From Bacteroidota bacterium (GTDB taxonomy: Bacteria; Bacteroidota; Ignavibacteria; UBA10030): DNA of 64,000 nucleotides. Of this stretch, positions 7,692-56,387 are shown piece by piece (the stretch's first letter is position 1; every line of letters starts with the position of its first letter). The notes beneath the pieces were generated by a model. The model made no database searches. It was not told where the DNA came from and worked only from the letters and a program-made list of their open reading frames with translations. The position numbers were made by a program, and so were the translations under genes. The DNA lies in contig JALONQ010000003.1 of assembly GCA_025454835.1 (NCBI GenBank), positions 1-64,000 of the forward strand, written 5' to 3'.

Positions 7692-7708
7692 TCTCCAACT
7701 GGAGAATA

Positions 7709-7939
7709 TTGCCACAACGAGCACAAAGGACACAAAGGGCAGAGAGAGGTTTTGTATATTGCTGAACAGTGCGGTTTGGAACTTTTTGATCTTCTGACCA
7801 CCGATCTCCGGTTGCCGGCCTCTGACGTCTGATCACTGATCTCCGACCCCTCGACTCGCCGCTCGACAGAGCTCGCGGCTCGCTCGGGGTCGCTCGGGGC
7901 ATGCTACTGACCTCTGACTACTGACATCTCTCTTCTCCC
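7709..7939. repeat. purH-mreB gap: ACAAAGGACACAAAG words, then CTGATC/CTCTGAC words
   Basis: The 248-base gap holds no gene. At 7711-7749 lies a GCCACAACGAGCACAAAGG-type word string. From 7797 to 7930 the sequence is built of ACTGATCTCCGAC, CCTCTGACGTCTGATC and CTGACCTCTGACTACTGAC words. In the middle is a GCTCG-rich stretch (7855-7895). The mreB start follows directly. The CTCTGAC vocabulary recurs at 29985, 31390, 56390 and 61072. Confidence 0.65.
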
Positions 7940-12237: not shown

Positions 12238-12350
12238 AGATGGGCACGCAGAGTCGCTGAGGACGCAGAGAGCGCAGAGGAACGAATAGGAAATGTTGCT
12301 TTGCCTTTCTCTGCGACCGCTGCGATCTCTGCGTCTCTGCGTGATTAGCC
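12238..12350. repeat. CACGCAGAG...GACGCAGAGAGCGCAGAGG / CTCTGCGTCTCTGCGTG inverted pair between mrdA and rodA
   Basis: The left arm at 12247-12282 is made of CGCAGAG words. The right arm at 12305-12346 is made of TCTGCGATCTCTGCGTCTC words. They are close reverse complements with a roughly 25-base loop. The element starts just after the mrdA TAG and ends about 15 bases before the rodA ATG. Confidence 0.78.
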
Positions 12351-19846: not shown

Positions 19847-21403
19847 TTAGGGGGGGCCGAACGCAACCTCTTTCCAAGAATCGGTTCGGAAGGGTGAGGC
19901 CGGTAACCCTGCGAGGTTCAACAACGACGCATCCGGGTTCTCGGCCCAGGCGTAGCGGACGGCGGCAGGACGGGTAAGGTCATCACGCCAGACGGCGACC
20001 TCGTTTCCCTCGATGCGTGCCCGTGCTGGACGGAACACGCGGTCTTCTCCGGCGATCAGAAATCCACTGAGCTCCGGACCGGTCCGCCCTTGCAGGCCGC
20101 CGCCAAGTTCCGTGAAGGTGACCCGGATGCGCGAGCCTTCGTGCCGGAAACCTGCGAACAGCGGGCCGGATGCGACCACGTGGTTCCGGCCGTACGTATG
20201 ATGCAGCGCAAGACGCGCAAGACGTTCGCCGACCGGTCGCTTCACCCGTGGATGCAGGTCCATCGGATCGCCGACGTCGATGGTGACGGCCATGCCGGTG
20301 TGCGGGAGCGATAGTGCCGCCAACTGTGCGTCACGCAGGTCGGGCCAGCCTTCTTTGCCCAGATCGAGGTTCCGTTCCAGATTCGGAAGCTGGACAAAGT
20401 AGAATGGAAGCGTGCTGTCCTTCCATGCGTCGCGCCAACTGCGGATGAGCGCGGGGAACAGGCTCCGATACTGCGTCGACCGAGTCGCGTTCGATTCGCC
20501 CTGATACCAGATGACTCCGCGGATCGTCGACGACAGCCACGGGTGGATCATCGCATTCCATTCGCCGGAGGGAGTGTCGCGGTTGCCCGGTCCCCGCGGT
20601 GGGGCGGGTCGGGCCGGAGGCGCTCGACGGGCGGCGATGGCTTCTGCCGAGTCCTTCAACCATTTGGCATCGATTTCGGGCTTGCGGCGCTGGTACTCGG
20701 CCATGCGCTCGGGATACAGGCGCAAGTTCTCCTTCCATCTCTCGAGAATCGAACCAAAGGCCGTGTCACGTTCCAACGCTTGCCCTGACATCCATCCTTC
20801 TGCCGCCGTTCCGCCCCATGAGGAATGGATGATGCCGACCGGAATGCGTAGCGAATCGCGCAGCACCCGGCCGAACCAATAGGCGACGGCGCTGAATCGA
20901 CCCGTCGCTTTGTCGCCCGACTTCGCCCACGACGCGGCTCCATCCTTCTGCGGCTCTTCGGAAAGCGCTCGAGGTATGGTGCACAGACGGAACAGACTGT
21001 CCGCTTCCGACACGATCGCCTCCTCGCCTTCCGCCGAACGGTCCCGTCGAAATTCCATATTCGACTGCCCGGACGCCAGCCAGACCTCGCCGAGGTAGAT
21101 GTCCGTGCGACGGTGATCGGAAGATCCTGCGATGATCAACTCGTACGGCCCACCGGCGGCCATGGGAGCCAACGTGACCATCCACGCACTGTCGGCTGCG
21201 GGGACGGCCGATACGCTCTGACCGGCCAACAACACACGCACACCGGTTCCGGGGGCATCCCATCCCCACACATTTATGGGACGGTCGCGTTGCAGGACCA
21301 TGTGATCACCAAAGATACCGGCGAGACGCGGCTGGGCGCTTACCAACTCCGAGAAGAGGACGAAGGCAAGAAGGGGTAGCCACAAAGAACACAGAGACCA
21401 CAA
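19847..21403 (-). CDS. sialate O-acetylesterase-like SGNH esterase, exported
   Basis: This protein of about 518 residues belongs to the 9-O-acetylesterase family that removes acetyl groups from sugars. Block I is 'EVWLASGQSNMEF' with the nucleophile serine. Further blocks are 'GIIHSSWGGTAAEGWMS', 'GVIWYQGESNA' and the catalytic 'DVGDPMDLHPRVKRPVGERL' with Asp and His. The C-terminus is beta-rich. The N-terminus is unusual: the open frame runs to 21574 through word repeats, and the signal peptide core ('LWSLCSLWLPLLAFVLFSEL') is itself encoded by a CTTTGTGGTCTCTGTG repeat. No ATG is suitable; TTG at 21403 or 21385 is proposed. It may de-acetylate polysaccharide for the nearby lyases. Confidence 0.82.
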   Translation of the reverse strand: MWSLCSLWLPLLAFVLFSELVSAQPRLAGIFGDHMVLQRDRPINVWGWDAPGTGVRVLLAGQSVSAVPAADSAWMVTLAPMAAGGPYELIIAGSSDHRRTDIYLGEVWLASGQSNMEFRRDRSAEGEEAIVSEADSLFRLCTIPRALSEEPQKDGAASWAKSGDKATGRFSAVAYWFGRVLRDSLRIPVGIIHSSWGGTAAEGWMSGQALERDTAFGSILERWKENLRLYPERMAEYQRRKPEIDAKWLKDSAEAIAARRAPPARPAPPRGPGNRDTPSGEWNAMIHPWLSSTIRGVIWYQGESNATRSTQYRSLFPALIRSWRDAWKDSTLPFYFVQLPNLERNLDLGKEGWPDLRDAQLAALSLPHTGMAVTIDVGDPMDLHPRVKRPVGERLARLALHHTYGRNHVVASGPLFAGFRHEGSRIRVTFTELGGGLQGRTGPELSGFLIAGEDRVFRPARARIEGNEVAVWRDDLTRPAAVRYAWAENPDASLLNLAGLPASPFRTDSWKEVAFGPP

Positions 21404-21582
21404 AGAGAAGGAACGTTTCGTGTCTCTTGCTCTTTTCGATCTATGCCACGAAGTGGCTGGATTGACTTCCAAAGATGTTAGCCGCACAGAACGCAAAGAA
21501 CACAAGGTCCTGTGCCGTCTCGTGGAGGTGTGAAATGCTGTTCTTTGTGTTCCTTTGTGATCTTTGTGGCTCATTTCTTCAG
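21375..21582. repeat. ACAAAGAACACAGAGACCAC / CTTTGTGTTCCTTTGTG word cluster, three blocks
   Basis: Block one (21379-21410) encodes the esterase signal peptide core on the minus strand. Block two (21478-21512) is GCACAGAACGCAAAGAAC-like. Block three (21540-21580) is the inverted form TTCTTTGTGTTCCTTTGTG. Block three directly abuts the TGA of the 21571-22797 gene. Confidence 0.78.
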
Positions 21583-22797
21583 TTCAAATTCATCATGCGT
21601 TCGGCCCGTCGGCGTGATCGCCCGATACTGCAGCGTCGAGCCGTCAATGCGAATCGTCTGGTACAACTGCACCCCTTCGGCCATTTTTGCCATGATCGGC
21701 TCATACTGTCGATTCAGCGGATACATCTTCGGTCCCGATGAAGAGACGATGTACACTGTGCCCGGTTCGTTCGGCGAAACGACCTTGCCGTCGGCGAGTT
21801 TATGTGAGCGGCTGTATGTGTGGTCGTGGCCCTGGAGGACAAGATCAACGTGATGCTTGTCGAACACCCCCAGAAAGGCGTCACGTGATCTCCGGTTGTC
21901 GCGCCCGCCTCCGGACGAATACATCGGATGGTGAAATGCCATGATCGTCCATGTTCCGCGGCGATGCGTCAGCACAGAGTCCATCCACGCAGCCTGTTCT
22001 TCAAGCTTGGTGTTGCTGTTGATCATCACCAACCGCGCACCTTGATAGTCGACGACGTACGATGTCTCCTCCAGGCCGGGAGGTCCGTTCTCGGGAAGCG
22101 TGAACTGGGTGCGCCAGAGCGGCAATTCGTTGTTGTGGATCCGAGCGCCGGCCAGCAGGATGGTGCCGTAGTCGTGGTTGCCCGGCACCATGATGCTCGG
22201 CATCGTGGCGTTGATGAACCCAGCCGCATCGAACCACTTGTTCCAGAGGTCATCCGTGGGCGTCGTCGTCAGGTCGCCGACAAACAGCCAGAAACGCGCG
22301 TCGCAGGCACCCCGATACGCCTCGCGGAATATTCGGGAAACATGGGTACGGATGTCGTTCTGCGGGTCGCCCAGGAAAACGAAGGTGAACGGCTCGGGCC
22401 GCTCTGCCGCCGTGCGGAATTGGTTCCATTCGCTCCACGCGCCCTTGGCGCCGACTCGATAGGCATACACGGTCGCAGGCCGAAGATTCGTCAGAACGGC
22501 GGAGTACCACGTCGCCTCTGGTCCGTCTTTGTTCTTCCACGGCGTGATCGACGCAGGAACCGAACGGGTCTGGTCCTTGAAGGTGGGACCGTCGGTCGCT
22601 TCGGTGTACTCAACGACGGCGTCGCGGACCTTATCGAGCGTACGCCACGTGGCGGCCATGCTGGTGGCGGGAGTCTCCGTCAGGTTCAACATGATCCGAT
22701 GTGGCGCGTCTTTCTCAACCTTGATCTGGGCGAACAACAGAGTGGGAACGAGCAGGGCGGCGATCAACTCGTGCCGGTGTGCGTGTCGATGGTTCAT
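21571..22797 (-). CDS. purple-acid-phosphatase-like metallophosphoesterase, exported
   Basis: This 408-residue exported protein has a short signal ('LIAALLVPTLLFAQ'), an N-terminal fibronectin-III-like domain (residues about 25-135) with 'LTNLRPATVYAYRVG', and a calcineurin-like phosphatase domain. Metal ligands are seen in 'FVFLGDPQND', 'FVGDLTTTPTDDLW', 'VPGNHDYGT', 'MAFHHPMYSSGG' and 'LQGHDHTYSRS'. This order is that of purple acid phosphatases, which hydrolyse phosphomonoesters in the periplasm or outside. It lies upstream of the esterase gene; the gap is repeat sequence. The link to alginate use, if any, is unknown. Confidence 0.88.
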   Translation of the reverse strand: MNHRHAHRHELIAALLVPTLLFAQIKVEKDAPHRIMLNLTETPATSMAATWRTLDKVRDAVVEYTEATDGPTFKDQTRSVPASITPWKNKDGPEATWYSAVLTNLRPATVYAYRVGAKGAWSEWNQFRTAAERPEPFTFVFLGDPQNDIRTHVSRIFREAYRGACDARFWLFVGDLTTTPTDDLWNKWFDAAGFINATMPSIMVPGNHDYGTILLAGARIHNNELPLWRTQFTLPENGPPGLEETSYVVDYQGARLVMINSNTKLEEQAAWMDSVLTHRRGTWTIMAFHHPMYSSGGGRDNRRSRDAFLGVFDKHHVDLVLQGHDHTYSRSHKLADGKVVSPNEPGTVYIVSSSGPKMYPLNRQYEPIMAKMAEGVQLYQTIRIDGSTLQYRAITPTGRTHDEFELKK

Positions 22798-22864
22798 GGT
22801 AACATCCCGATGGGCATTGAGAAAGGACTCCTTACCCCCATCGACGGTGAGGGGCTAAATAGAA

Positions 22865-22945
22865 AATGAAGGATGCCTTCGCGTCTCTGCGTCCCTGCCT
22901 GCCTCGCATTGCACGTTGAACCGGCAGGCAGGTTCGCGGTGATCT
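22865..22945. repeat. CCTGCCTGCC / CCGGCAGGCAGG inverted repeat after kdgK
   Basis: Arms at 22894-22903 (CCTGCCTGCC) and 22921-22932 (CCGGCAGGCAGG) enclose about 17 bases. A GCGTCTCTGCGTCC word lies to the left. Directly after the kdgK TAA on the minus strand comes AAGAAGATCACCGC, which also follows the gntR stop at 48642. Confidence 0.65.
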
Positions 22946-22948
22946 TCT

Positions 22949-23980
22949 TTAGCGCTGCACGCGCCCCGAGCCGCCCCCCTTCAGCAACTCTTCCACCTCT
23001 GCCACGCTCACGTGGTTGAAGTCGCCGGGAATGGTGTGCTTGAGGCACGATGCGGCCACAGCGAAATCGAGCGCGGATTGCGTCGGCATCTCTTTAGTGA
23101 GCCCATAGATGAGCCCGGCCCCGAACGAATCGCCCCCGCCAACGCGGTCGACAATGCGGATGCTGTACTTTCGGCTTTCTGTGAATTGCTTTCCATCCCA
23201 CGCGACGGCGGACCAATTATTGTCGGAGGCCGAAAGGCTCTCGCGCAGCGTGATCGCTACGAGCTTCAGCGATGAAAATCGTTTCATCAGCTGATCGGCG
23301 ACCGACCGGTACTTGTCGGCTTCGACCTTGCCGGCGTGAACGTCGGAGCCCTCGGCTTTGATGCCGAAGACCATCTCGGCGTCTTCCTCGTTCGCGATCA
23401 GGACGTCGACGTGAGCGCAGACCTTCGACATCACGTCGCCCGCCTTCTCGCGTGACCAGAGCTTCTTTCGAAAATTGAGGTCGCAGCTCACGGTGGCGCC
23501 TGCCGCTCGAGCGGCTTGGACCGCCTCGATCGTTGTATCGGCCGCCAAAGCGCTCAGCGCGGGCGTGATACCGGTGACATGAAACCATGCTGCGCCGTTC
23601 AAGACATCCTTCCATGGGATCATACCCGGCTTGACGCCGGCGATCGCCGCACCCCCCCGGTCGTAGATGACCTTGGACGGACGCTGTGATGCGCCACTCT
23701 CAAGAAAGTAGATCCCGATCCGGTCGCCGCTGCGGACGATATGCTGCGTATCCACACCATAGCGCCGGAGCGCGTTGAGGGCTGCATCGCCGATCTCGTG
23801 CTTCGGCAGGACCGTCACGAAGCGCGCATCGAGGCCGAAGTGAGCCAGCGAAACGGCGACATTCGCCTCACCGCCACCGAAGGTGGCTTCAAGCGAGGAG
23901 GTTTGGACAAACCGCTGGAATCCGGGAGTGGCGAGCCGAAGCATCAATTCGCCGAAGGAGATGATCTTAGGAGAGCTCAT
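22949..23980 (-). CDS. kdgK: 2-keto-3-deoxygluconate (KDG) kinase, PfkB family
   Basis: This 343-residue ribokinase-fold enzyme phosphorylates KDG to KDPG. The N-terminal 'IISFGELMLRLATPGFQRF' and 'ATFGGGEANVAVSLAHFG' are KdgK-like. The C-terminal PfkB signature is 'DRVGGGDSFGAGLIYGL' with the catalytic aspartate. 'VSCDLNFRKKLWS' is the usual central block. It is the penultimate step of the alginate/uronate route in this window, feeding the Eda at 28955-29914. Six perfect heptamers lie 11-52 bases upstream of its ATG in the probable 5' leader, and no Shine-Dalgarno is visible. Confidence 0.9.
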   Translation of the reverse strand: MSSPKIISFGELMLRLATPGFQRFVQTSSLEATFGGGEANVAVSLAHFGLDARFVTVLPKHEIGDAALNALRRYGVDTQHIVRSGDRIGIYFLESGASQRPSKVIYDRGGAAIAGVKPGMIPWKDVLNGAAWFHVTGITPALSALAADTTIEAVQAARAAGATVSCDLNFRKKLWSREKAGDVMSKVCAHVDVLIANEEDAEMVFGIKAEGSDVHAGKVEADKYRSVADQLMKRFSSLKLVAITLRESLSASDNNWSAVAWDGKQFTESRKYSIRIVDRVGGGDSFGAGLIYGLTKEMPTQSALDFAVAASCLKHTIPGDFNHVSVAEVEELLKGGGSGRVQR

Positions 23981-23990
23981 GGGTTAAACG

Positions 23991-24032
23991 GTGAACGGTG
24001 AACGGTGAACGGTGAACGGTGAACGGTGAACG
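23991..24032. repeat. heptamer array, GTGAACG x6, just upstream of kdgK
   Basis: Six perfect tandem 7-base copies lie between the kdgK start (23980) and the next gene upstream. On the coding strand it reads CGTTCAC repeated. The same heptamer type occurs upstream of kdgF. Confidence 0.92.
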
Positions 24033-24083
24033 AGACGCGGGGGGCAGGATGTTCTCCCACCCCCCAGTCTCAATGTGCTTCAG

Positions 24084-24144
24084 TCTTATATCTTACATCT
24101 TATATCTCACATCTTACATCTTCTATCTTACATCCTACCTCTTG
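24084..24144. repeat. ATCTTAC(ATCTTAT) quasi-tandem array
   Basis: Words such as TATCTTACATCTTATATC and CATCTTACATCTTC repeat with a period of about 8-10 bases. They lie just downstream of the T9SS protein stop at 24155. The same words recur at 33810-33830 and 33943-33985. Confidence 0.8.
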
Positions 24145-24154
24145 CGTCTCCTCG

Positions 24155-25768
24155 CTATTTCATCAGAACCATCTTCTGCATCTCCATCCGCGAGCCGCTT
24201 TCAAGGCGATATAGATACACGCCCGAGGGCATGGCCCGGCCGGTCGCATCCTTGCCGTTCCACGTCGCGACATGCGTTCCCGCCTCGCGGACGCCGTCGA
24301 CGATGGTCGTCACCATCTGGCCTAGAAGCGAGTAGACCTTCAGCGTGGCCTTGCCCGTCTGCGGCATGGTGAAGCGAATCTCCGTCGAGGGGTTGAACGG
24401 GTTCGGGTAGTTCTGCTGCAGCGAAAACTCCTGCGGCGTGGCGTCGATCTGCTCGACCGACGTGCCGGAGTACACGAGCGAGTTCTCAGTCGTACCAGTC
24501 ACACGCGCGAGGGCGATGTAGAGCGAGGCCCCACCAATGTTGGCCCGAGCGACCACGGAATCACTGACGATGAACGCCGCAGTATCCAGCCGAGTCGTGT
24601 GGGGGAGGAGCGTCGGACCCACGTTCTTCCACACGAGGGGAGACGTCGTGTCCACCAGCGCGACCTGCAGATTCGCGTTACCCGCCGCGACGCCGTCGTT
24701 GCCCTTGTACTTGAGCCAGTATCCGATCATGACGTTGTACGCCGTCGCACCGGTATTCGCCGCCTTACCCACATCGACCTTGAAGTACCGGTTCGCCGCG
24801 ACCTTGTCGATGCCCGTGCCCAGTGTCGGCGTTACCGTCGTCGAGTTCCCGGCGACCGCCGTCACTTTCACATAGTGTCCGGTCGCGTTTGAGGGGGCAT
24901 TGAACCGCAACGTCACCGGCCGGAAGCCGAACTCGTCGCCGACGGGATACTCCTTCGAGGTAACGCCGCCGCCGTTGTTGATGCCGCGGCCGACCCCGCC
25001 GATGACATACGAACTCTCGCTGTAGCCCCGGAACGTCGTGCCGTCCGTCCAGACTGTGATCAGCGATCCAAGCTTTGCTTCGACGAGCCCCGATTCGAAG
25101 TAGACGAAGGGATTGACATGCGCCGCCGAGCTGTTCGAACCGCCATAGGTGAAGATATCATTGTTGAGGATGACGCGCGCTCCGCCGGTCTTTCGGAACG
25201 TGATGCCGGCAAACTCGTTGGTCGAGGTCGCGACATAACCGCCGCACGTGACCGTGCTGTTCGTCGAACCCACAAAGATGACGCGCACGTTGTGCTTGGT
25301 CGATCCCGCCGAGCCGGTGCTGAGGTCGAACACGCCGTTGCTGGTGAAGTTGCTCGAGAGGTACAACGTATCGACGATCTCGTTCGGGGTGTTCGCAACA
25401 TCAGGATTGTCCCACGTGCTGCTGGAGATCGCGAGAGCGCTGCTGGCATGGATCACGAGATCACCCGTGATCGTCATGATGACAGGCCTGGTGCCGTTCA
25501 GCCGGAGGCGTGATGCGGCCCCAGTGGCTTCGCCCACGGTGAGACTCGCGACGGCAAAACTCGTGTCCACGCCGACCGAATCTCCGGCCGCGATGACCAC
25601 CTGGCTTGTCGGACCTGGCTTGACGCCGCCGACCCAGGTGGAATCGCTGCTCCACAATCCCTTCTTGCCGGACGACGTGATCTGCTGTGCGGCCGCCGGC
25701 GCCGTGAGCAACAGCGTCACCGCCAACAGCAGGCAGCCCGCGCTGAGAGCGTAGCGAAGTGTTTTCAT
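24155..25768 (-). CDS. T9SS-secreted beta-rich protein of unknown function
   Basis: This 537-residue protein is preceded by GGAGGAG and has a signal peptide ('LLLAVTLLLTAPAAAQQ'). The N-terminal part ('GLWSSDSTWVGGVKPGPTSQ') resembles G8-like or right-handed-helix beginnings, with repeated 'VTCGG', 'ILNNDIFTYGGSN' strand-turn units to about 330. A beta-sandwich region follows. The last 85 residues are a type A sorting tail: 'NYPNPFNPSTEIRFTMP', 'KVYSLLGQMV' and 'SGVYLYRLESG'. It should be secreted by the type IX system and either released or attached. Its place just downstream of two alginate lyase genes suggests a role at the polymer surface (inference). The frame upstream of the chosen ATG is overlap with the lyase gene. 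Confidence 0.82.
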   Translation of the reverse strand: MKTLRYALSAGCLLLAVTLLLTAPAAAQQITSSGKKGLWSSDSTWVGGVKPGPTSQVVIAAGDSVGVDTSFAVASLTVGEATGAASRLRLNGTRPVIMTITGDLVIHASSALAISSSTWDNPDVANTPNEIVDTLYLSSNFTSNGVFDLSTGSAGSTKHNVRVIFVGSTNSTVTCGGYVATSTNEFAGITFRKTGGARVILNNDIFTYGGSNSSAAHVNPFVYFESGLVEAKLGSLITVWTDGTTFRGYSESSYVIGGVGRGINNGGGVTSKEYPVGDEFGFRPVTLRFNAPSNATGHYVKVTAVAGNSTTVTPTLGTGIDKVAANRYFKVDVGKAANTGATAYNVMIGYWLKYKGNDGVAAGNANLQVALVDTTSPLVWKNVGPTLLPHTTRLDTAAFIVSDSVVARANIGGASLYIALARVTGTTENSLVYSGTSVEQIDATPQEFSLQQNYPNPFNPSTEIRFTMPQTGKATLKVYSLLGQMVTTIVDGVREAGTHVATWNGKDATGRAMPSGVYLYRLESGSRMEMQKMVLMK

Positions 25769-25835
25769 GATGCTCCTCCGAAGAATGGTAAGGGGGGTGG
25801 TGATGGTGGATTGATACATCGATCGTTGGCGGTCT

Positions 25836-27059
25836 TCATGGGACCACGGGTGCGACCCCGTACCACAGAAGGTCGCGGTGGGCGATGAACTTCGCATCGC
25901 CAAGCGCCAAGGCTTCCGCAAGGTACTTCCGTTCCTGCGTCAATGCATAGATACGTACAAGCAGCAGCGCCATCGAAGATTTTTGCACGCCGTCCAGGTC
26001 GTCGTGCGGCCAGGCTTTCTCGCCCCGGGCAAACGGCAGCAGATAGTCGACAGCCGCCCGGATACGTTGTCCTTCTGGTGTCGCTGGCGCCCACAGGTCC
26101 ACCCCAATGCGTCGGGCCTGCAACGCCAACCGTGCGTGCGCTTCGAGATTGAAAACCGAGTAGTGGAATGGACGCGTTCGGGCCAATTCCTTCGGCTGAG
26201 ATCCATCGGGCTCGATCTGCGAGAGGATCCTCTTGGCGCCGGCCTCCTGCATTAACCGGCGGGCGACCTCCGTTCTCCCGGAGTATAACGCCGCCGGGAT
26301 CACGTGGACGTCATACCAGGTGCCATGGTTGTTCGGAGAATCACTTTCATCTTTTCCGTTGTCGCTCTCCGTCAACCACGTGACGTACCTGGAGAACCAC
26401 GCTCGCAGTGCTGTATCGTCTTCCGCCGTCCACGATCTCGACCCGCGGAGCATGCCGACGGCATCAATGACGAGCGCCGTGTGGCGGCCGTCGAGCACGC
26501 CCGGACCGCGTCCATTGCTGCGGCCTGGAACCGCCTGCGAGTACTGCAGGTTGGGGTTCATGCCTTTGCTATCGTCGAGGAACCATGTGCGGATGAGCTT
26601 GGTCGCATGTCGGGCATACATCTCGTCACCCGAGAAGAAGTACGCAAGGCTGAGCGGCACCACCGCCGACACCACCGTTCCGAACAACTCCTGATCGGGA
26701 TACTTTTTCACCTCGGGATTTGTCTCGCCATCCCGGCGAATATAGGGCAGCCCATCGGGCTTCGACGGATCGGGCCACCAGTAGCGTGACAAGCTCATGT
26801 AATCGCGCTTGTCGCCGCTGGGAGGTGTGGCGTCCTTTTCTGTTACGGAGACCGGATCGACATCCATCGCTTTCTCGGCGTCGCGCAGCAGCTTCCTGTA
26901 CGCCGGCTTGAACGGCGACGAAGTCGATTGGAGCGACGACTTCACACGAAGCAACGTGAACGGATCGATGCTGTACACTTCGAGCGTGTTCGACTGCGCG
27001 AACGCGATCGAAGCGGTCATCGCCGCAGAGACAAACCATGCCAGATGATGTCGGGTCAT
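25836..27059 (-). CDS. alginate lyase family protein (PF05426 type, PL5/PL38-like)
   Basis: This 407-residue exported protein has the signal 'HHLAWFVSAAMTASIAFAQ'. The (alpha/alpha) barrel blocks of PF05426 lyases are visible: 'SRYWWPDPSKPDGLPYIRRD', 'NPNLQYSQAVPGRSNGRGPG', 'DGRHTALVIDAVGMLRG', 'ESDSPNNHGTWYDVHVIPAA' and 'RTRPFHYSVFNLEAHARL'. The conserved NNHG(T/S)W and following histidine-tyrosine residues are the likely active site. Members cleave alginate or glucuronan by beta-elimination. Its ATG overlaps the PL6 stop by four bases (ATGA), so the two lyases are made together. It lacks a T9SS tail, suggesting a periplasmic site. Confidence 0.85.
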   Translation of the reverse strand: MTRHHLAWFVSAAMTASIAFAQSNTLEVYSIDPFTLLRVKSSLQSTSSPFKPAYRKLLRDAEKAMDVDPVSVTEKDATPPSGDKRDYMSLSRYWWPDPSKPDGLPYIRRDGETNPEVKKYPDQELFGTVVSAVVPLSLAYFFSGDEMYARHATKLIRTWFLDDSKGMNPNLQYSQAVPGRSNGRGPGVLDGRHTALVIDAVGMLRGSRSWTAEDDTALRAWFSRYVTWLTESDNGKDESDSPNNHGTWYDVHVIPAALYSGRTEVARRLMQEAGAKRILSQIEPDGSQPKELARTRPFHYSVFNLEAHARLALQARRIGVDLWAPATPEGQRIRAAVDYLLPFARGEKAWPHDDLDGVQKSSMALLLVRIYALTQERKYLAEALALGDAKFIAHRDLLWYGVAPVVP

Positions 27060-28783
27060 TTCAACAAGACCGCCTTTCGTGTCCGAATTCCTTCTTCCGT
27101 CTGCAACACCAGAAGGTATGTTCCACTTGATTCGTGCAAGGCATTCCATGTGACGCTGTGCGAGCCTGCCGGAAGGTGCCCGTCGGACACGTCGCGCACG
27201 AAACGACCGGCCACGTCGTAGAGCTGCAGGCGAACCCCCTGCGACCTGGCAAGCGTGAAGCGGATGGTCGTCGCAGGATTGAAGGGGTTGGGGAAGTTCT
27301 CCAACACCTCAACGCTCGAGGGAGGGTCGGCATCACCCTCCACGGCCGTTGAGGTCCGCATCCAGTCGGGTCCCACATCTTCGACGGTGATCGGTCGTCG
27401 TGTTCGCGGCGCTTCGGAGGCTTGGTCTGCACCGACATCTTTCGCCGCCGGCCGGGGTTGGCCGTCCATGTCGAGCACCACCTCCGCGTACGACCCCACG
27501 GCGGCCCCCAGCAACGGGCTGTCCACCGCCGGACGCCAGAGACCTTCGGCGTCCTTTACCAGCTTCGGGTCGACCATGGAGATACCCGCCGGCAGCGAGA
27601 TACCCAGCGACGCACCGTAGAACACGTTGCCCGCATACGTCATGTTGATCGGCGTATCGATGTATGTGATGAGCGGCCCGTACGATGAACGCACGGCGTT
27701 GTTCGCAATCGTACAATCGAGCGGCGGGAGGGTGAACTCGGAATCTTTGCCGACACCGACGAGCAGACTGTACTTGCAGTTGACGATCGTATTGAAGGCG
27801 ACGAGCGCCCGCTGCACCTGGAAGTAGCGGTTGAGCGGACTATTGGGGGCGCCGTTCATCATCGGCAGGGCCGACTTTGTGCTGCTCCCGGCGAGGTCGG
27901 CCAGGTAATTGTTGATGACCGTGTGGTCCTCGCCGATGATCCGGATGCCGCCTGAGTTCGTGACATTGTTGCCAAAGAAGAAGTTGCCTTCGACCGTACA
28001 TCGATTCCCGTGGCGCAACGTCAGCGCACCCTCGCACGAGACGAACGTGTTGCCCCGGTAGATGTTCTCGCACGACTTGTTCGAGATGATCTCCACTTCG
28101 CCGTTGCACTGGTAGAAGTAGTTGTTCTCGACGACGGTGTAGGAATCGTACATCGACCAGTCGCTCGTCCCCACGCGGATCGTCTCTCCTCCGTTCACGC
28201 CGAGCGGCGGACGCGGACCGAAGTAGTTGCTGTCGATCTGATGATAGTTCGGTGACGGACCCAGCCAGACGACAAGCGTCGTGCCGGAATGGGTCTTGCC
28301 GGCCAGAGAGCAGTGATCGACGCGGTTGTGGTGGCCGTAGAGCGACACCCATTTGTAGTCGGTCGAGTTGCTCGGAGGGTTGCAGTCTACGACCGACGTG
28401 TTCGTCAGCCGGCAATGATGCGCTTCGCCCATGGACGACGACCGGAATTCGATGACAGCCCCGGAGGTTGGCACCGCGCGCTCGAACCGGAGTCCGTCGA
28501 CGACGAGCCACGATCCGCCGATGCGGAGCGAACTCGAGCCCGTCAAGATCACCTGGCCCGGATCGGCGGCACGGAGCACGATCGGCCGGAGTGAATCGCC
28601 CGTTCCCTGGAAGACGATCGCCTGGTTTGTCCAGGTCCCGGCCGCCATTGACAGCGTGTCGCCAGGCTTGGCGGTCGCCATGACCGAAGCGATCTGCGCG
28701 GCCGAGGTGACCGGGTAGACGTCAGCGAGCGCGGTCTGCGCGCCCCAAAAGAACAGCAAGAATGTCAGGCTGCGTCGAATCAT
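27056..28783 (-). CDS. PL6 alginate lyase (chondroitinase-B fold) with T9SS tail
   Basis: This 575-residue secreted right-handed beta-helix enzyme has a signal peptide to about residue 20. The catalytic region has 'GVNGGETIRVGTSDWSMYD' (residues 195-213), 'CNGEVEIISNKSCEN' (226-240) and 'CEGALTLRHGNRCTVEGNFF' (250-269). These are the PL6 calcium site and the catalytic lysine (about 236) and arginine (about 257). 'GGIRIIGEDHTVINNYL' continues the helix. The last 85 residues are a type IX sorting tail ('NFPNPFNPATTIRFTL', 'SSGTYLLVLQTEEG'). It should attack alginate at the cell surface, giving unsaturated oligomers. It is translationally coupled to the PF05426 lyase. Confidence 0.92.
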   Translation of the reverse strand: MIRRSLTFLLFFWGAQTALADVYPVTSAAQIASVMATAKPGDTLSMAAGTWTNQAIVFQGTGDSLRPIVLRAADPGQVILTGSSSLRIGGSWLVVDGLRFERAVPTSGAVIEFRSSSMGEAHHCRLTNTSVVDCNPPSNSTDYKWVSLYGHHNRVDHCSLAGKTHSGTTLVVWLGPSPNYHQIDSNYFGPRPPLGVNGGETIRVGTSDWSMYDSYTVVENNYFYQCNGEVEIISNKSCENIYRGNTFVSCEGALTLRHGNRCTVEGNFFFGNNVTNSGGIRIIGEDHTVINNYLADLAGSSTKSALPMMNGAPNSPLNRYFQVQRALVAFNTIVNCKYSLLVGVGKDSEFTLPPLDCTIANNAVRSSYGPLITYIDTPINMTYAGNVFYGASLGISLPAGISMVDPKLVKDAEGLWRPAVDSPLLGAAVGSYAEVVLDMDGQPRPAAKDVGADQASEAPRTRRPITVEDVGPDWMRTSTAVEGDADPPSSVEVLENFPNPFNPATTIRFTLARSQGVRLQLYDVAGRFVRDVSDGHLPAGSHSVTWNALHESSGTYLLVLQTEEGIRTRKAVLLK

Positions 28784-28807
28784 GTGCGATGTGTCATGGG
28801 GACAACA

Positions 28808-28940
28808 TGAGAAGTAGGCAGTAGGCAGGTACGGTCAGGCCATGGGCAGGTAGGCGTCCGATGGCAAGAACCGTTTGATCTTTGTCCAACGGCTTTCGCC
28901 TGCCCGATCCTGCATGTACCTGCTTACTGCTTACTCTCTC
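28808..28940. repeat. GTAGGCAGTAGGCAGGTAC / GTACCTGCTTACTGCTTAC inverted pair
   Basis: The left arm at 28812-28855 carries GTAGGCAGTAGGCAGG and GGGCAGGTAGGCG. The right arm at 28895-28938 carries CGCCTGCCCGATCCTGC and GTACCTGCTTACTGC. A CAAGAACCGTTTGATC / TTTGTCCAACGG core lies between. Same family as 52278-52402. Confidence 0.78.
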
Positions 28941-28954
28941 GGTTCTTCCGAGCC

Positions 28955-29914
28955 CTACACTTGTATCAAATGCACCGCGAACCCGGCGAATTCCTTTTCG
29001 AAATACACGGTCTGCAACACGCCATTCTTCTCATTTCGCGTCTCCGGACGGAATCGATAACCGCGCCGCTCGCAGTACGCCACCGCCCGGTCGATGAAGT
29101 TCGTGCTGATCGCGATGTGGCCGTGTGTCCCGAGGAACTGCCGCTTCAGGAACTCGAACTCCACGCCGACGAACAACGCCCCTCCGGCATCCCGGACGGG
29201 CATCCCGACGAGTTCGCCGAAAGCCGTGGCGTCTGCTGTAGCGGTCGGCTCGTCGACACCATTGATCCCCACATGTCGGAGATGGAACCCGAGCATCGTC
29301 TGCACCGCCGCGCGCGTGAGGTCGCGGATCGTGTCGAACTTGCCGTCGGCGATCAGATCGGACTTCACCATCCACGAACCACCGCACGCCAGCACGGATG
29401 GCAGGCGCAGATACGATAGCAGGTTCTTGTCATCAATGCCCCCGGTGGGGATGAACCTAAGTCCTTTGTACGGCGCGCTCATCGCCTTCAGGAAGTCCAC
29501 GCCCCCCGCTGCCTCCGCCGGGAAGAACTTTACGACCTCGAGGCCCAAGGCCAGGGCTTGCTCCACGTCGGACGGCGTTGCCACACCCGGCGTGACCGGA
29601 ATGCTCTTTTTCAAGCAGTACTCGACCACATCGGGATTCAATCCAGGGGCGACGATATACTTCGCCCCGGCACCAAGCGCTTGGTCGACCTGTTCGGTTG
29701 TCAGAACGGTGCCGGCGCCCAGCGCCATGTCGGGAAAAGCTTTCGCGATCGCGGCGATCGACGCCTCCGCAGCGGAGGTGCGAAATGTGATCTCCGCACA
29801 CGGCAAGCCCCCTTCGACGAGGGCGTTGGCCAGCGGAACGGCGTTCTTCGCGTCGTCGATGGCGATGACAGGGATGATGCCGAGGAGATGAAGATGAGAG
29901 AGCGCGCTGTTCAT
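28955..29914 (-). CDS. eda: KDPG/KHG aldolase with C-terminal VOC-like domain
   Basis: This 319-residue protein has two parts. Residues 1-212 are the class I aldolase: 'GIIPVIAIDDAKNAVPLANA', the catalytic glutamate of 'AEITFRTSAAEA' (E41), and the Schiff-base lysine of 'LEVVKFFPAEAAGG' (K129). It cleaves KDPG to pyruvate and glyceraldehyde 3-phosphate. Residues 213-319 ('FHLRHVGINGVDEPTATAD', 'FLGTHGHIAISTNFIDRAV', 'FEKEFAGFAVHLIQV') resemble a vicinal-oxygen-chelate domain. From memory, this extended form is known from other aldolases of about 320 residues, so it is not a new fusion. It is the last enzyme of the alginate route. Confidence 0.9.
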   Translation of the reverse strand: MNSALSHLHLLGIIPVIAIDDAKNAVPLANALVEGGLPCAEITFRTSAAEASIAAIAKAFPDMALGAGTVLTTEQVDQALGAGAKYIVAPGLNPDVVEYCLKKSIPVTPGVATPSDVEQALALGLEVVKFFPAEAAGGVDFLKAMSAPYKGLRFIPTGGIDDKNLLSYLRLPSVLACGGSWMVKSDLIADGKFDTIRDLTRAAVQTMLGFHLRHVGINGVDEPTATADATAFGELVGMPVRDAGGALFVGVEFEFLKRQFLGTHGHIAISTNFIDRAVAYCERRGYRFRPETRNEKNGVLQTVYFEKEFAGFAVHLIQV

Positions 29915-29984
29915 GACGATGTATTCTGCATCGGTGAATGAATATTGGGTAACGGTACTCAGGACTCCAAGCGCCCCGCCAGCT

Positions 29985-30030
29985 CCGGGTCCTTACCACT
30001 GACCTCCGACTTCCGTCCTCTTCCCTTCCC
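29985..30030. repeat. ACTGACCTCCGACTTCCG word string
   Basis: A short CTGACCTCCGACTTCCG word string followed by CCTCTTCCC lies directly after the stop of the 30032-31195 gene. It belongs to the CTCTGAC family seen before mreB. Confidence 0.5.
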
Positions 30031-30031
30031 C

Positions 30032-31195
30032 TCACTTCGTCAATATCACCTTCACACTCCGTGTCGTGCGGCCCGACGACATCCGTATCAGATATGATCC
30101 GCTCGCAAGGCGAGACCCGTCAAACGATGTCCGATGTCGTACACCCGGAGCTGCCCATCCACGATATAGCGTGGCCACCGACCGGCCGGATGCGTCATAA
30201 ACCTCGACCGTCGTTTCACCCTCCTTTTCCACAAGGAATTCGACCATCGTCATCGGATTAAAAGGGTTCGGATAAGCCCGAACGTCGATTGAATGCGGCA
30301 CCGTGCCAGCTTCTTCGATGGATCCCGTCGAGGTCAGTTCCTGGATTGCGAATCCCGCGAATCGGACGGTGTCGTCTCGCAGACTCAACGAATCAAGCAG
30401 GCTCCGATAGATGCCCCATTTTGGCCGGATGAACGTGTTCGTCGGCCGGATCGTCATGATATTGTTGCTGCTGTACGACAGCAGCGTCACGCCGTCGCTC
30501 ACGCGCTTGATCGTCATGCTGTAGTGCGCGTTCGAGCCGACACTGAGCGATTCGGCGCATTCCACCCAGGTGCCGAGGAATGAGGACAACGGTGCTTGCG
30601 TCACGACGGTGTGATTGTTGTGCTTCAATTCGATGCGGTTGGGGCTTGCCTTGCGGGGCGTGAGCGTGAAGATCGGGTCCGCGTCATCGCCTCCGACGGC
30701 TTTGATCTGGTGGATGTGCGTGAAGCTGGTGGATGGCTGAAACCCGGCCGCAAGTCGAAATCTCCACTTGTACACGACCGTCTCGCCCACGACACCGATG
30801 AGCGTGTCGCCCGACTGGTCGTACGTCTTGATCTCCATCCGCTGCCGGTCAAAGTTGATGCAGCGGTCGTTGTCGGGCCATCGGTGAATGTAGAACTCGA
30901 ATACATACTCCCCCAGTGTTTCGTCCCACACCTCGGCGATATGCCGGCCAAACTCGGGATGCACGCATTCCGGATGCTCAACGACGTCGCCGCCGTTCGG
31001 TGCGAATACGCTGTTGATGAGCTCGTACGTGTTCCCCGGTCCGTCGGCGTTCAGGACCGCTTGACCCGGCGCCGAAGACCAGAGAAGAAGTTGGCCACAA
31101 AGAAGCACAGAGAGCACAACCAGTGGCCTGAGATGCTGTCGCGAAGCGACGAACTTCTTTTCTAGACTCAGCGTAACCTTTGCCGAATAGGACAT
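30032..31195 (-). CDS. T9SS-secreted jelly-roll protein, putative polysaccharide lyase
   Basis: This 387-residue protein has a long N-terminus and signal peptide. The core (about 50-290) is beta-rich, with 'RMEIKTYDQSG', 'VVYKWRFRLAAGFQPSTSF', 'THIHQIKAVGGDDADPIF' and 'RIELKHNNHTVVTQ'. The pattern (QRxEIKxY, then YxWxF, then HIHQIK) is like jelly-roll polysaccharide lyases and heparin-lyase-I-type proteins, but I cannot assign a family. A type IX sorting tail ('AYPNPFNPMTMVEFLV', 'LASGSYLIRMSSG') ends it. The h-region of the signal ('PLVVLSVLLCGQLLLW') is encoded by a CTCTGTGCTTCTTTGTGG repeat. The frame is open to 31291, but the ATG at 31195 is preferred. Confidence 0.75.
   Translation of the reverse strand: MSYSAKVTLSLEKKFVASRQHLRPLVVLSVLLCGQLLLWSSAPGQAVLNADGPGNTYELINSVFAPNGGDVVEHPECVHPEFGRHIAEVWDETLGEYVFEFYIHRWPDNDRCINFDRQRMEIKTYDQSGDTLIGVVGETVVYKWRFRLAAGFQPSTSFTHIHQIKAVGGDDADPIFTLTPRKASPNRIELKHNNHTVVTQAPLSSFLGTWVECAESLSVGSNAHYSMTIKRVSDGVTLLSYSSNNIMTIRPTNTFIRPKWGIYRSLLDSLSLRDDTVRFAGFAIQELTSTGSIEEAGTVPHSIDVRAYPNPFNPMTMVEFLVEKEGETTVEVYDASGRSVATLYRGWAAPGVRHRTSFDGSRLASGSYLIRMSSGRTTRSVKVILTK
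31074..31125. repeat. ACAAAGAAGCACAGAGAGCAC word inside a coding region
   Basis: The element GGCCACAAAGAAGCACAGAG lies inside the signal peptide coding region of the 30032-31195 gene. It closely matches the words at 21379-21410, 32422-32458 and 55625-55645. Confidence 0.75.
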
Positions 31196-31289: not shown

Positions 31290-31470
31290 ACCCCTAGCCC
31301 CTCCTTCGTAAGGAAGGGACCTCTTTGTCTCTTCGGGAGATCGATGGCTCACCAACGCCTCGCGTGAGAAGATGTCTGGCAGCCACCGGCCTTTGGCCTC
31401 TGGCCTCTGACTTCCATCCTTGCACTGAATTAGTGTTCGCCGCTTTGAGGCGTTTGTGTCGGGCCTCCGG
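31290..31470. repeat. gap upstream of the jelly-roll gene, with GGCCTCTGGCCTCTGACTTCC words
   Basis: No gene is seen. At 31386-31424 the sequence is CCGGCCTTTGGCCTCTGG followed by CCTCTGACTTCC. At 31455 comes GGGCCTCCGGCTACC, immediately before the kduD stop. The CCTCTGAC vocabulary is shared with four other junctions. Confidence 0.5.
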
Positions 31471-32223: not shown

Positions 32224-32252
32224 GAGGATCCCTGATGATGAAAATGGAAAAT

Positions 32253-32300
32253 GGAGAATGGAGTGGAGAATGGAGTGGAGAATGGAGTGGAGAATGGAGA
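32253..32300. repeat. GGAGAATGGAGT 12-base tandem array upstream of kduD
   Basis: Three perfect 12-base copies and one variant lie 30-77 bases upstream of the kduD ATG. Weaker flanking words extend from 32240 to 32312. On the minus strand the array is in frame with kduD and would read 'ILHS' repeats if translated. Confidence 0.88.
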
Positions 32301-32421
32301 ATAGAGAATGGCAGAGCACCCTGGTGAGCGACGCATCGGGTTTCCGAGAGACTTCATCGCTCGCACTCTTCCAGTCCTCACGCATGCTCTCGTCTGCGCT
32401 CCCTCGCTCCACTCCCTTCTC

Positions 32422-32460
32422 TCTTTGTGTTCTCTGTGTTCTTTGTGGTTATTGTTTCAG
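32422..32460. repeat. CTTTGTGTTCTCTGTGTTC word at the hexuronate transporter stop
   Basis: A CTTTGTGTTCTCTGTGTTC string followed by TTTGTGGTTATTG runs into the 3' end of the transporter gene. The transporter stop (TAA) is part of the word. Confidence 0.75.
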
Positions 32461-33720
32461 CGCGACCCGCTCCACCTTCCCCGCCAGCAGATACACCGAC
32501 CCGACGGCCAGAGGGACCAACGCCGCCGCCAGCAGAAAGACGAGCAGATATCCCTGCTGCGATATCGCGGGAACCGTCCACGTGCTGATCAATACGCCAA
32601 CCACCGCGCTCGTTCCGCCCAGACCCGCCAGCGAACCGACCGATTTGCCCGAGAACAGGTCGCTCGGGAGCGTCTGAATGTTGTTGATCGAGACTTGGAA
32701 GCCGAAGAGGATCACGGCGATCAGCAACACGGCCGCAACGGGATCGGCCGCATACGCTGTGGCGATGAGCGCCGGAAACGAGATGATCCCACCCAGCAGG
32801 ATCGCCCACTTGCGAGCCTTCCCGACCGCCCAGCCGCGCTTCATCAAATGTCCGGAATACCAACCGCCAAGCAGGCTCCCCGCCGCCGCGCCGACATACG
32901 GCACCCACGCGAAGATGCCGATCTGCTTGATGTCGAACCCGAACACCTCGGCGAGATAGATCGGGAGCCAGTTGACGAACAGCCACCAGACCGGGTCGAG
33001 GAAGAACCGCGACAGAATGACCGACCAGCTTTCTTTGTAGGAGAGCAATTCTCCCCACGAAAGGACGCGTTCATCCACCGGAGTTGTGCTTGCGACCTTC
33101 TGGCCCGAAAGGATGTACTCCTTCTCTTCCGGCGTCAGCCACGGATGTCCATCGGGGGCGGCCCGGTTGATGAACCACCATGGAATGATCCAGATGAGGC
33201 CTAGAATGCCGATGAGAACGAAGGTGGCCTTCCAGCCGACAAGCAGGTACAGGAATGCGACCAATGGCGCCGAAATGACCGCTCCGATGGATGCACCCGC
33301 GTTGAAGATGCCTTGAGCGAACGCCCGCTCCTTGATCGGGAACCACTCGGCGTTCGCCTTCGTCGCCCCGGGCCAGTTGCCCGCTTCGCTCAACCCGAGC
33401 ATCGCGCGGAAGAACCCGAACGTCATGAGGCTTCGGCCAAGGCCGTGCAGCATGCACGAGATCGACCAGGCGAAGATCGTGATGACGAAGCCCAGGCGCG
33501 TTCCGACCTTGTCGATCAGGCGACCCGAGAGGCTCTGGCCAAGCGCGTAGGCGACCATGAAGAACGACACGATCGCCGCGTAGTCGTCCTTCGTCAGGCC
33601 GACATCCTTTGAGATAGACGGCCACATGACCGCCAGCGCGTTCCGGTCGATGTAGTTGATGACCGTGGCAAGCGCGATGAGGGTGATGATGTACCAGCGG
33701 AGGCCTTTGACGAGTCTCAT
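32449..33720 (-). CDS. MFS hexuronate transporter, ExuT-like
   Basis: This 423-residue inner-membrane protein has twelve predicted helices. It begins 'RWYIITLIALATVINYIDRN' (the family NYhDR motif) and has 'GRLIDKVGTRLGF', 'RAMLGLSEAGNWPGATKANA', 'EWFPIKERAFAQGIFNAG' and 'WWLFVNWLPIYLAE'. These match the ACS family of hexuronate/galacturonate symporters. Within this locus it most likely imports unsaturated uronate monomers or DEH made by the lyases. It sits between kduD and kdgF on the same strand, separated from both by word repeats. Confidence 0.9.
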   Translation of the reverse strand: MRLVKGLRWYIITLIALATVINYIDRNALAVMWPSISKDVGLTKDDYAAIVSFFMVAYALGQSLSGRLIDKVGTRLGFVITIFAWSISCMLHGLGRSLMTFGFFRAMLGLSEAGNWPGATKANAEWFPIKERAFAQGIFNAGASIGAVISAPLVAFLYLLVGWKATFVLIGILGLIWIIPWWFINRAAPDGHPWLTPEEKEYILSGQKVASTTPVDERVLSWGELLSYKESWSVILSRFFLDPVWWLFVNWLPIYLAEVFGFDIKQIGIFAWVPYVGAAAGSLLGGWYSGHLMKRGWAVGKARKWAILLGGIISFPALIATAYAADPVAAVLLIAVILFGFQVSINNIQTLPSDLFSGKSVGSLAGLGGTSAVVGVLISTWTVPAISQQGYLLVFLLAAALVPLAVGSVYLLAGKVERVALKQ

Positions 33721-33809: not shown

Positions 33810-33985
33810 TTCATCGTCCATCTTACATGAAGCCATCTCAAAAATGGTTCGCGCGGCGTTCGCGGCGGTAGCGGCGGCCGCAACGTTAATGATAACTACC
33901 GATTCTTAACCGCTGCGAGCACTGCTTTTGAGACCGCTTCATCTTACATTTTACATCTTACATCTTACCTCTTACTTCTTCTTGC
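33810..33985. repeat. palindromic element of about 110 bases embedded in an ATCTTAC array
   Basis: TGAAGCCATCTCAAAA (33827-33842) and its imperfect reverse complement TTTTGAGACCGCTTCA (33928-33943) bound a GC-rich core (GCGGCGTTCGCGGCGG and so on). Outside both ends are ATCTTAC words: CCATCTTACA on the left and TCTTACATTTTACATC on the right. The array touches the kdgF stop region. The element looks like a small MITE-type insertion; no gene is seen. Confidence 0.65.
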
Positions 33986-34328: not shown

Positions 34329-34360
34329 TGGAGCGCCTTTGCGGAAAGAAGCGTGAGATC

Positions 34361-34437
34361 AGTGAACAGTGAACAGTGAACAGTGAACAGTGAACAGTGA
34401 ACAGTGAACAGTGAACAGTGAAGGGTGAAGGGTGAAC
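34361..34437. repeat. heptamer array, AGTGAAC x8 plus three variants, upstream of kdgF
   Basis: Eight perfect 7-base copies (34361-34416) are followed by AGTGAAG, GGTGAAG and GGTGAAC. Only point changes separate it from the GTGAACG array upstream of kdgK. Confidence 0.93.
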
Positions 34438-34464: not shown

Positions 34465-34545
34465 CGCTACCTACTACCCGACACCCAATACCCGATACCC
34501 CATACCCCATACCCCATACCCGATACCCGATACTCAACCCCCTAC
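34465..34545. repeat. TACCCGATACCCCATACC word array after the PL17 gene
   Basis: CTACCTACTACCCGACACC, CCAATACCCGATACC, CCCATACCCCATACC and CCGATACCCGATACTC words repeat with a period of 7-8. The array reaches the PL17 stop codon region. Same family as 36754-36805 and the in-frame copy at 49841-49886. Confidence 0.85.
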
Positions 34546-36753: not shown

Positions 36754-36805
36754 TGATACCTGATACCCGATACCCGATACCCAATTCCCGATTCCCGATT
36801 CCGAT
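36754..36805. repeat. TGATACCCGATACCC / CCGATTCCCGATTCC word array upstream of the PL17 gene
   Basis: TGATACCTGATACCCGATAC words change into CAATTCCCGATTCCCG words over 50 bases, starting about 14 bases before the PL17 ATG. The other end of the same gene carries the same word family. Confidence 0.82.
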
Positions 36806-55344: not shown

Positions 55345-55649
55345 ATCTCCGTCCCCGGGTGTTGCCGGGATGACATCACCCTGAGCGAGGCACGACCCGC
55401 GAACAATCGTTGCGCGAGCCGAGTCGAAGGGTGAAGCCTGTGTTCTCATGGTTCGTATCGCAACGTGATTTGAAGGCGGTCGGTTGGTTTCGGCCGCCTT
55501 TGTTGTGTTGATCGTCGCCTGCCGGCCGCTCTCATTGTCCTTGGTCGTTAGGCAGGCTTCGCGGCCCGTGAAAAGAGGTTTGCCGCTTGTGCGGCAACTG
55601 TATTGGGCCTCCGGCTGTTCTTTGTGCTCTTTGTGGCTAATTATCTTCC
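55345..55649. repeat. 305-base gap after pntB: TCACCCTGAGCGAG hairpin, terminator, GGCAGGC and CTTTGTG words
   Basis: No gene is seen. At 55376-55434 an inverted repeat runs from TCACCCTGAGCGAG to GAGTCGAAGGGTGA. At 55513-55566 lie GCCTGCCGGCC and GGCAGGC words. At 55603-55645 lie GGGCCTCCGGCTG and TTCTTTGTGCTCTTTGTGG words, ending just before the TSUP gene. At least three repeat families are stacked here. Confidence 0.65.
55473..55507 (+). terminator. hairpin terminator after the pnt operon
   Basis: AAGGCGG (55473-55479) pairs with CCGCCTT (55494-55500), with TGTTGTGTTG following. The stem is short but GC-rich. It would end the pnt transcript. Confidence 0.5.
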
Positions 55650-56387
55650 ATGACCCCCGAACAACTCCCCCTGCTGGCTGCCGGCATTCTTGTGATCGCC
55701 TTTCTGTACTCTTCTGTCGGCCATGCGGGGGCGTCGGGGTATATCGCCGTCATGTCGCTGTTGAGTGTCGCGCCTGAGGTCATCCGGCCGACGGCGTTGG
55801 TCCTCAATATCCTCGTGGCAAGCATCGCCAGCTGGCAATTCTGGCGAAGCGGGAATTTCTCCTGGCGGTTGTTCTGGCCGTTCGCCGTGGCCGCGCTTCC
55901 CCTGGCGTTCGTCGGTGGCTACATCGCGCTGCCGGCCGAGGTACTCAAGCGCCTGATCGGGCTCGTTCTACTTGCCTCTGCTGCGAGGCTGCTGTTCAAA
56001 CCTCCTGACGATGTCGTCGTGTCTGAGCCCTCCAGGTTTGTCGCTGTCTTGCTCGGAGGCGGTTTGGGATTGTTGGCGGGGATGACGGGAACCGGGGGCG
56101 GCATCTTTCTGACGCCGGTCCTCATTCTGTTCGGATGGGCCAAAGCCAAGACGGCCGGCGCGGTTTCTGCGGTATTCATTCTGGTCAACTCGACCGCGGG
56201 CTTGCTGGGTAACTTGAGCGCAACGAGCGCTTTCCCGACCCCCGCGTTGGCTCTGGCTCTCGCGGCGATCGTGGGAGGCTCAGCCGGCTCCTATCTCGGA
56301 AGCCGTCGCCTCCCCCATACGGCCATCAAACGCCTTCTGGCGGTCGTCCTCACGATCGCTGGAGCAAAGCTGATGTTCTCTGTGTGA
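55650..56387 (+). CDS. TSUP-family transporter (TauE/SafE-like)
   Basis: This 245-residue inner-membrane protein has about eight helices. The two homologous halves begin 'FLYSSVGHAGASGYIAVMSL' and 'GGGLGLLAGMTGTGGGIFLT', the family glycine-rich signatures. Such proteins export sulfite, sulfoacetate or other organosulfur anions; the substrate cannot be read. It is preceded by a CTTTGTGGCTAATT word and followed by 33 bases of CTGACCTCTGATCTC words. Confidence 0.87.
   Translation: MTPEQLPLLAAGILVIAFLYSSVGHAGASGYIAVMSLLSVAPEVIRPTALVLNILVASIASWQFWRSGNFSWRLFWPFAVAALPLAFVGGYIALPAEVLKRLIGLVLLASAARLLFKPPDDVVVSEPSRFVAVLLGGGLGLLAGMTGTGGGIFLTPVLILFGWAKAKTAGAVSAVFILVNSTAGLLGNLSATSAFPTPALALALAAIVGGSAGSYLGSRRLPHTAIKRLLAVVLTIAGAKLMFSV

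Follow-up and report, generated by a model that had tools for sequence, protein, structure and literature searches.

The window analysed here is a stretch of 64,000 nucleotides (positions 1 to 64,000, forward strand, of contig JALONQ010000003.1, assembly GCA_025454835.1) from a Bacteroidota bacterium of the class Ignavibacteria. It carries an esterase gene and a gene for a jelly-roll protein, and the 5' part of each contains, in frame, sequence resembling an arm of an inverted repeat that is dispersed through the genome. The two genes have the following features.

19847..21574, minus strand: esterase gene (SASA, PF03629); the sole ATG before the mature part, at 21574, is the candidate start
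~21475..21574, minus strand: complete upstream copy of the repeat, with an A-rich arm (HKDHKGTQR), a loop and a T-rich arm (21474-21509)
21372..21410, minus strand: T-rich arm coding SLWSLCSLWLP, the front half of the esterase hydrophobic core (arm profile)
21335..21370, minus strand: non-repeat rest of the putative esterase signal peptide (LAFVLFSELVSA), which aligns with orthologues; cleavage site placed by eye
30032..31195, minus strand: jelly-roll protein gene, likely ATG at 31195, with a weak Polysacc_lyase match and a Por_Secre_tail domain
31089..31119, minus strand: degenerate T-rich arm coding VVLSVLLCGQL in the putative jelly-roll signal peptide (word match, profile)

The original prediction proposed that a single repeat word supplies the signal-peptide core of both proteins. 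For the esterase this was borne out, since the word matches exactly at 21381-21405 (minus strand), where it is read in frame as SLWSLCSLW directly before LPLLAFVLFSELVSA/QPRLAG. Read from the ATG at 21574, the frame also passes through the complete upstream copy, which had not been reported, and then through the second arm. The arm profile gives 21372-21410 an E-value of 6.1e-6 over the 866 kb of genome stretches analysed; this value is partly circular because the profile includes the esterase arm, but the exact word match is independent of the profile. The repeat likely forms part of the putative signal peptide of the esterase, and the LAFVLFSELVSA part is likely ancestral. The esterase ATG overlaps the stop codon of the upstream phosphatase gene as ATGA (window 21571-21574), and the same-genus esterase orthologue likewise starts ATGAGC, after GGAAA.

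The Por_Secre_tail domain of the jelly-roll protein suggests a lineage related to Bacteroidota. In the jelly-roll gene, whose mechanical open reading frame extends to a GTG at 31291, the likeness to the repeat is degenerate. Its arm differs from the 16-nt word by two mismatches and a 1-nt insertion, which shifts the phase between units, and its E-value is 0.21 over the 866 kb. The arm scores 10.5-10.6 bits, and none of 5000 shuffles of the gene's own signal-peptide codons matched this score (best shuffle, 8.3). Here GGC precedes CAA, and the stop that can close the final phase of a copy is missing. The repeat probably forms part of this signal peptide as well, although the case is weaker than for the esterase.

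The dispersed inverted repeat and its coding capacity

The word CTTTGTGNTCTCTGTG makes up one arm of an inverted repeat with dispersed copies. The pattern CTYTGYGNYCTYTGYG has 118 exact matches in the genome (3.2 Mb, 47 contigs), against one for the reversed pattern used as a control, and it is present in 47 of the 61 genomes searched, this genome included. All 118 exact words lie inside the 866 kb analysed, of which the window is a part. The window itself contains 35 word matches at no more than three mismatches, where 9.4 were expected and none of 100 shuffles reached 35. The arm profile derives from 83 exact arms, that of the esterase among them, and its consensus consists of 9-nt units with the end ...TTTGTGGCTA. 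When arms were paired on opposite strands over the 866 kb, all 43 pairs had the A-rich arm before the T-rich arm and none the reverse order; in four more neighbouring pairs, both arms were on one strand. Paired copies span 69-211 bp with 6-nt margins counted in. T and A occupy the two end positions in 64% and 65% of the 83 arms. By a gene finder made for this analysis, 85 of 136 arms fall neither in genes nor in the open frames upstream of them. We also considered a relation to repetitive extragenic palindromic (REP) sequences or REPINs adjacent to a RAYT gene. This was dropped because none of the 118 exact words is near either of the genome's two Y1_Tnp (PF01797) matches, which lie on contigs C33 (275-616) and C30, outside the stretches that hold the words. 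The repeat is a mostly intergenic dispersed inverted repeat, similar to miniature inverted-repeat transposable elements (MITEs) or Rickettsia palindromic elements (RPEs). Its unit is an inverted repeat of a mostly basic arm and a hydrophobic arm, and not a one-sided word.

It had also been claimed that the word codes for hydrophobic residues in all three frames. This holds for two of the sense frames of the 83 exact arms, LC.LC. (mean hydropathy 2.33; open in 78 of 83) and FV.FV. (2.37; open in all 83), and much less for SL.SL., the frame used by the esterase, which averages 0.54 and runs into a stop in 25 of the 83 arms. The antisense frames have hydropathies of -1.45, -3.38 and -2.54 and charges of +0.30, +1.85 and +2.01 per 8 residues. 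The T-rich arm is read as FVFFV, LCVLC or SLCSLW, and the A-rich arm as HKEHKE, PQRTQR or TKNTK, all hydrophilic and clearly basic in two of the three frames. Because the arms are inverted, either strand reads the A-rich arm first and the T-rich arm second. Accordingly, reading through the paired copies gave a basic and then a hydrophobic stretch in 42 of 258 frames, compared with 1.1% of length-matched random stretches of the genome. In 15 of 83 copies, the final phase is closed by a stop codon.

Genes with in-frame arms and their orthologues

At an E-value cut-off of 0.21, the arm profile finds a sense arm in the open frame at the 5' end of 27 genes of the genome. A possible start codon (ATG, GTG or TTG) follows the arm in 22 of them, so that most such arms need not be translated. 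In four genes, no initiator separates the arm from the conserved body: the esterase (bar one TTG, which adjoins the cleavage site), the jelly-roll gene, a TonB receptor gene (L082; PF00593, PF07715) with a paired in-frame copy, and a TauE gene (L085; PF01925). In a fifth, an amidohydrolase gene encoding a signal peptide (L095), the word comes after a GGAGG-ATG start, and the corresponding position has GGAGGTG in four of five relatives and GGAGAGTG in the fifth. From this arrangement of starts, we consider that these five genes probably translate the arm. The proposal that the repeat serves as part of likely signal peptides is supported for the esterase, probably for the jelly-roll protein and for three further genes.

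All five fused genes encode exported or membrane proteins, as do four to six of the other 22 (L072 and L099 are ambiguous). Fisher's test for this association gave p = 0.0016-0.0057, and 0.015-0.037 without the two window genes. By eye, the N-termini of the esterase (VSA), the jelly-roll protein and the amidohydrolase seem to show a basic n-region, a hydrophobic core and an A-x-A-like site, and the TauE arm would be a membrane segment rather than a signal peptide. Several other candidates were set aside. The GH9 (L092), GDSL (L084) and LTD (L089) genes have their own ATG and signal after an upstream repeat; an ABC permease gene (L055) had an E-value of 2.5; and an MCP gene (L081), with a one-mismatch match inside a transmembrane stretch, is not an arm-profile gene.

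The original prediction also proposed that the repeat could recruit genes to the secretome and that orthologues without it should be compared. We compared 27 orthologous sequences for four of the five fused genes (TauE was left out): four esterases, for which only full-length orthologues were used and partial matches were set aside, nine jelly-roll relatives, nine TonB receptors and five amidohydrolases. The nearest relatives compared share only 54-64% protein identity. The esterase orthologues begin with MSDMMQMSRRCIGAAVFSLVFISTAESQ (same genus), MKIFFVLISAFTVMQA, MKQLRIILLLSGILCSGVSALA and MTQMITMNRIVFFFLAACASALSA; a hydrophobic stretch precedes the mature part in all nine jelly-roll relatives; and the nine TonB receptors and five amidohydrolases have N-terminal signals of their own. 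None of the 27 orthologue 5' regions had a significant arm match (profile scores of at most 0.3 bits), compared with 10.5-25.5 bits for the best arms of our four fused genes. This suggests that the proteins of the four fused genes were already exported, with the repeat apparently taking the place of existing signals or lengthening them. In one of the 27 regions, that of L121 from a repeat-rich genome, the word matched at two mismatches. The same-genus jelly-roll start MSHIKAQRR was considered as an A-rich arm and rejected, scoring 0.1 bits. The esterase and jelly-roll genes share a contig in three other genomes (G001, G035 and G056), with a spacing in G001 of about 9 kb, as in the window. In an amidohydrolase orthologue from genome G011, GTCATTCTGAGCGAAGCGAAGAATCTC lies inside the signal-peptide n-region (MRTRLFVILSEAKNLIKWG...; L129, ~2705-2723, minus strand). 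We presume that it is another dispersed bacterial repeat, although the examined loci held no other copy and no paper on it was found.

The repeat is also found in distant genomes. A 30-nt form occurs in nine stretches of other public genomes, from Verrucomicrobia(les), Kiritimatiellae, Lentisphaerae, Akkermansia, Caldilineaceae and uncultured rumen-type bins. Judged by sequence, the clearest fusion is in a Caldilineaceae metagenome-assembled genome (Chloroflexota; JAGNDO010000006.1, L111), where an in-frame copy of 78 bp, that is 26 codons from TA to TA, gives the N-terminus MNRK-IATKNTKNTKRREIFHFFVFSVFFVAN-LLLAACAGKG, followed by an SH3_3 domain and a Big_1 match that falls below threshold. 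This copy would supply the basic and the hydrophobic parts of a lipoprotein-like signal, with LLAAC as what we take to be the lipobox. In a rumen-type bin (L110), a 61-bp in-frame copy (2841-2901) stands just before a GATase_6 (glutamine amidotransferase) match. In a Verrucomicrobiales metagenome-assembled genome (L106), several copies lie in a row at ~4238-4489 on both strands, with more than one frame open.

Copies that lie 3' of a gene were seen to add a hydrophilic, mostly basic C-terminal tail, such as PQRAQRSQRPR, in four genes. These are listed below, followed by the remaining arms and copies of the repeat in the window and by the window's many tandem arrays, which have units of 7 bp (or 12 or 21 bp), for example AACGGTG, CAGTGAA and TACCCGA.

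L062:11951-12841, L085:4020-4739, L086:12672-13067, L092:15112-15747: gene 3' ends entering an A-rich arm
7697..7748, minus strand: intergenic arm (word match, arm profile)
12239..12349, no strand assigned: intergenic paired copy of CTCTGCG type (word match, arm profile, pair analysis)
32414..32463, plus strand: arm between SDR and MFS genes (word match, arm profile)
55614..55650, plus strand: arm just upstream of the gene at 55650 (word match, arm profile)
23987-24032, 24084-24143, 32240-32311, 33940-33980, 34360-34437, 34468-34537, 36755-36799, 49841-49886: tandem arrays

Proposed mechanism and alternative explanations

We propose, as a probable explanation, that in-frame copies of the repeat become part of export signals, replacing or extending older ones. 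From time to time a whole copy, or the arm closest to the gene, would come to lie within the 5' part of an open frame, where the 9-nt unit would preserve a single frame along each arm. Read-through would then yield a basic and then a hydrophobic stretch, matching what a signal peptide needs as its n-region and h-region. Genes whose products are exported or sit in the membrane could therefore tolerate such fusions, whereas other genes would lose them. An older signal peptide may have been replaced or extended in this way in the esterase and probably also in the jelly-roll protein. Starting from what was observed directly, namely the repeat with its geometry, its in-frame positions and the signal-bearing orthologues without a significant arm match, we infer that the fused N-termini are translated and export their proteins, that the repeat has moved, and that selection rather than insertion bias lies behind the pattern.

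Several observations weigh against this explanation. Base-shuffled arms are already hydrophobic (mean 1.47), so that much of the hydrophobicity reflects plain T-richness, and complete copies are open in 131 of 258 frames (51%), compared with 58% for random stretches. The survey cut-off (E of 0.21 or less) is the value that just admits the jelly-roll gene, and exported or cytosolic status and start codons were assigned by hand, and signal peptides were judged by eye. The ATG after the word in the amidohydrolase gene could also serve as its start; if this arm is untranslated and the window genes are omitted, p rises to 0.07-0.12. The n-region of the TonB receptor, counted from its ATG, is acidic, and a predicted stem of 23 bp has that first ATG at its inner end. 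Copies L111 and L082 fold strongly, whereas the complete copy in the window folds modestly, with a z-score of -2.57 and 3 of 200 shuffles folding equally well. By eye, no fusion was seen at 30 loci (98 exact hits) of G056, where about ten genes adjoining the word all start after it, and no recognisable fused gene at 30 loci (47 hits) of G039.

One alternative is that the repeat is a leader-region hairpin only, with the true starts after it or in its last unit, or with poorly expressed fused genes, and with hydrophobicity as a by-product of T-richness. The starts available after the arm in 22 of 27 genes, the hydrophobic shuffled arms, the two genomes sampled without a visible fusion, the stable hairpins close to starts and an esterase dicodon score that begins directly after the arm all fit this idea. 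However, four genes offer no ATG, GTG or TTG between the arm and the conserved body, bar the TTG at the esterase cleavage site; the GGAGG resembling a ribosome site and the start, common to the relatives of the amidohydrolase, precede the word; and the esterase retains GQSN, WYQGE and DLHP, which we assume to be meaningful esterase motifs. We regard a hairpin-only role as unlikely. That the repeat recruits new proteins to export through a signal they previously lacked seems very improbable. The repeat does supply stretches that are hydrophobic and often also basic, but signals are already present in the orthologues of four of the five fused genes, no signal-less orthologue was found for any fused gene compared, and TonB receptors, Por_Secre_tail proteins and the esterase and amidohydrolase with their signals belong to families exported anyway. 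For the jelly-roll gene alone, chance is a serious contender, if not quite the favoured one: ordinary signal-peptide codons may simply resemble the word. The E-value, the two mismatches and insertion, the lack of a partner A-rich arm detectable by the profile, the same-genus orthologue without a significant arm, and the two-mismatch match in L121 all favour chance. However, L121 scores 0.3 bits against 10.5 for the jelly-roll arm, and the codon shuffles never equalled the latter.

Related elements and significance

The kind of element described here is already known, from the Yersinia RU-2 repeat and the RPEs; the present repeat and the arm-order argument were not found in our literature searches, which covered the repeat, its words as text and that argument and in which most papers were left unopened. 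A search combining signal peptide with REP likewise gave no match. The RU-2/YPAL repeat in YPO1552 (Delihas 2007, PMC2759123; review PMC2229807) is 168 bp long and is the one main signal-peptide case in the parts of these accounts seen; relatives of YPO1552 bear unrelated signals, as here, and a second Yersinia repeat frame (RU-1f) is reported there to be rich in hydrophobic residues. The present repeat differs in sequence and affects five genes in one genome as well as a Chloroflexota gene, and the same parts of the RU-2 account do not give the arm-order argument. RPEs, of about 150 bp, are described as lying in frame in many kinds of genes (PMC2229807, PMC10969869). They resemble the copies in L110, L111 and L082 as palindromic repeats in frame inside protein genes, whereas in our sample the translated 5'-end copies are all in exported or membrane proteins. 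Coxiella MITE fusions have also been described (PMC5896051). PARCELs (PMC2996958) are likewise palindromic coding DNA found across distant microbes and tied to membrane proteins, but are described as tandem 25-residue domains within proteins, unlike dispersed repeats in leaders and signal peptides. REP and REPIN sequences with RAYTs (PMC3116915, PMC3733652) share the short, palindromic and mostly intergenic character, but the present arms have a 9-nt period and their exact words are not near Y1_Tnp matches.

A survey of signal gain and loss reported that ISEScan found no transposable elements near N-termini (PMC5952966). Hairpin repeats without a transposase gene would presumably be missed by a scan of that type. 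It is conceivable, and we offer it only tentatively, that such inverted repeats are portable export-signal cassettes, of which an intact in-frame copy on either strand would give the n- and h-regions at once. They might then cause recurrent signal turnover, and sometimes gain, across phyla as distant as those of the window's genome and the Chloroflexota genome while staying invisible to insertion-sequence searches. The origin and replacement of bacterial signal peptides is an unsettled question, and if the arm-order argument is true, then elements of one class make export signals out of leader DNA without any design.

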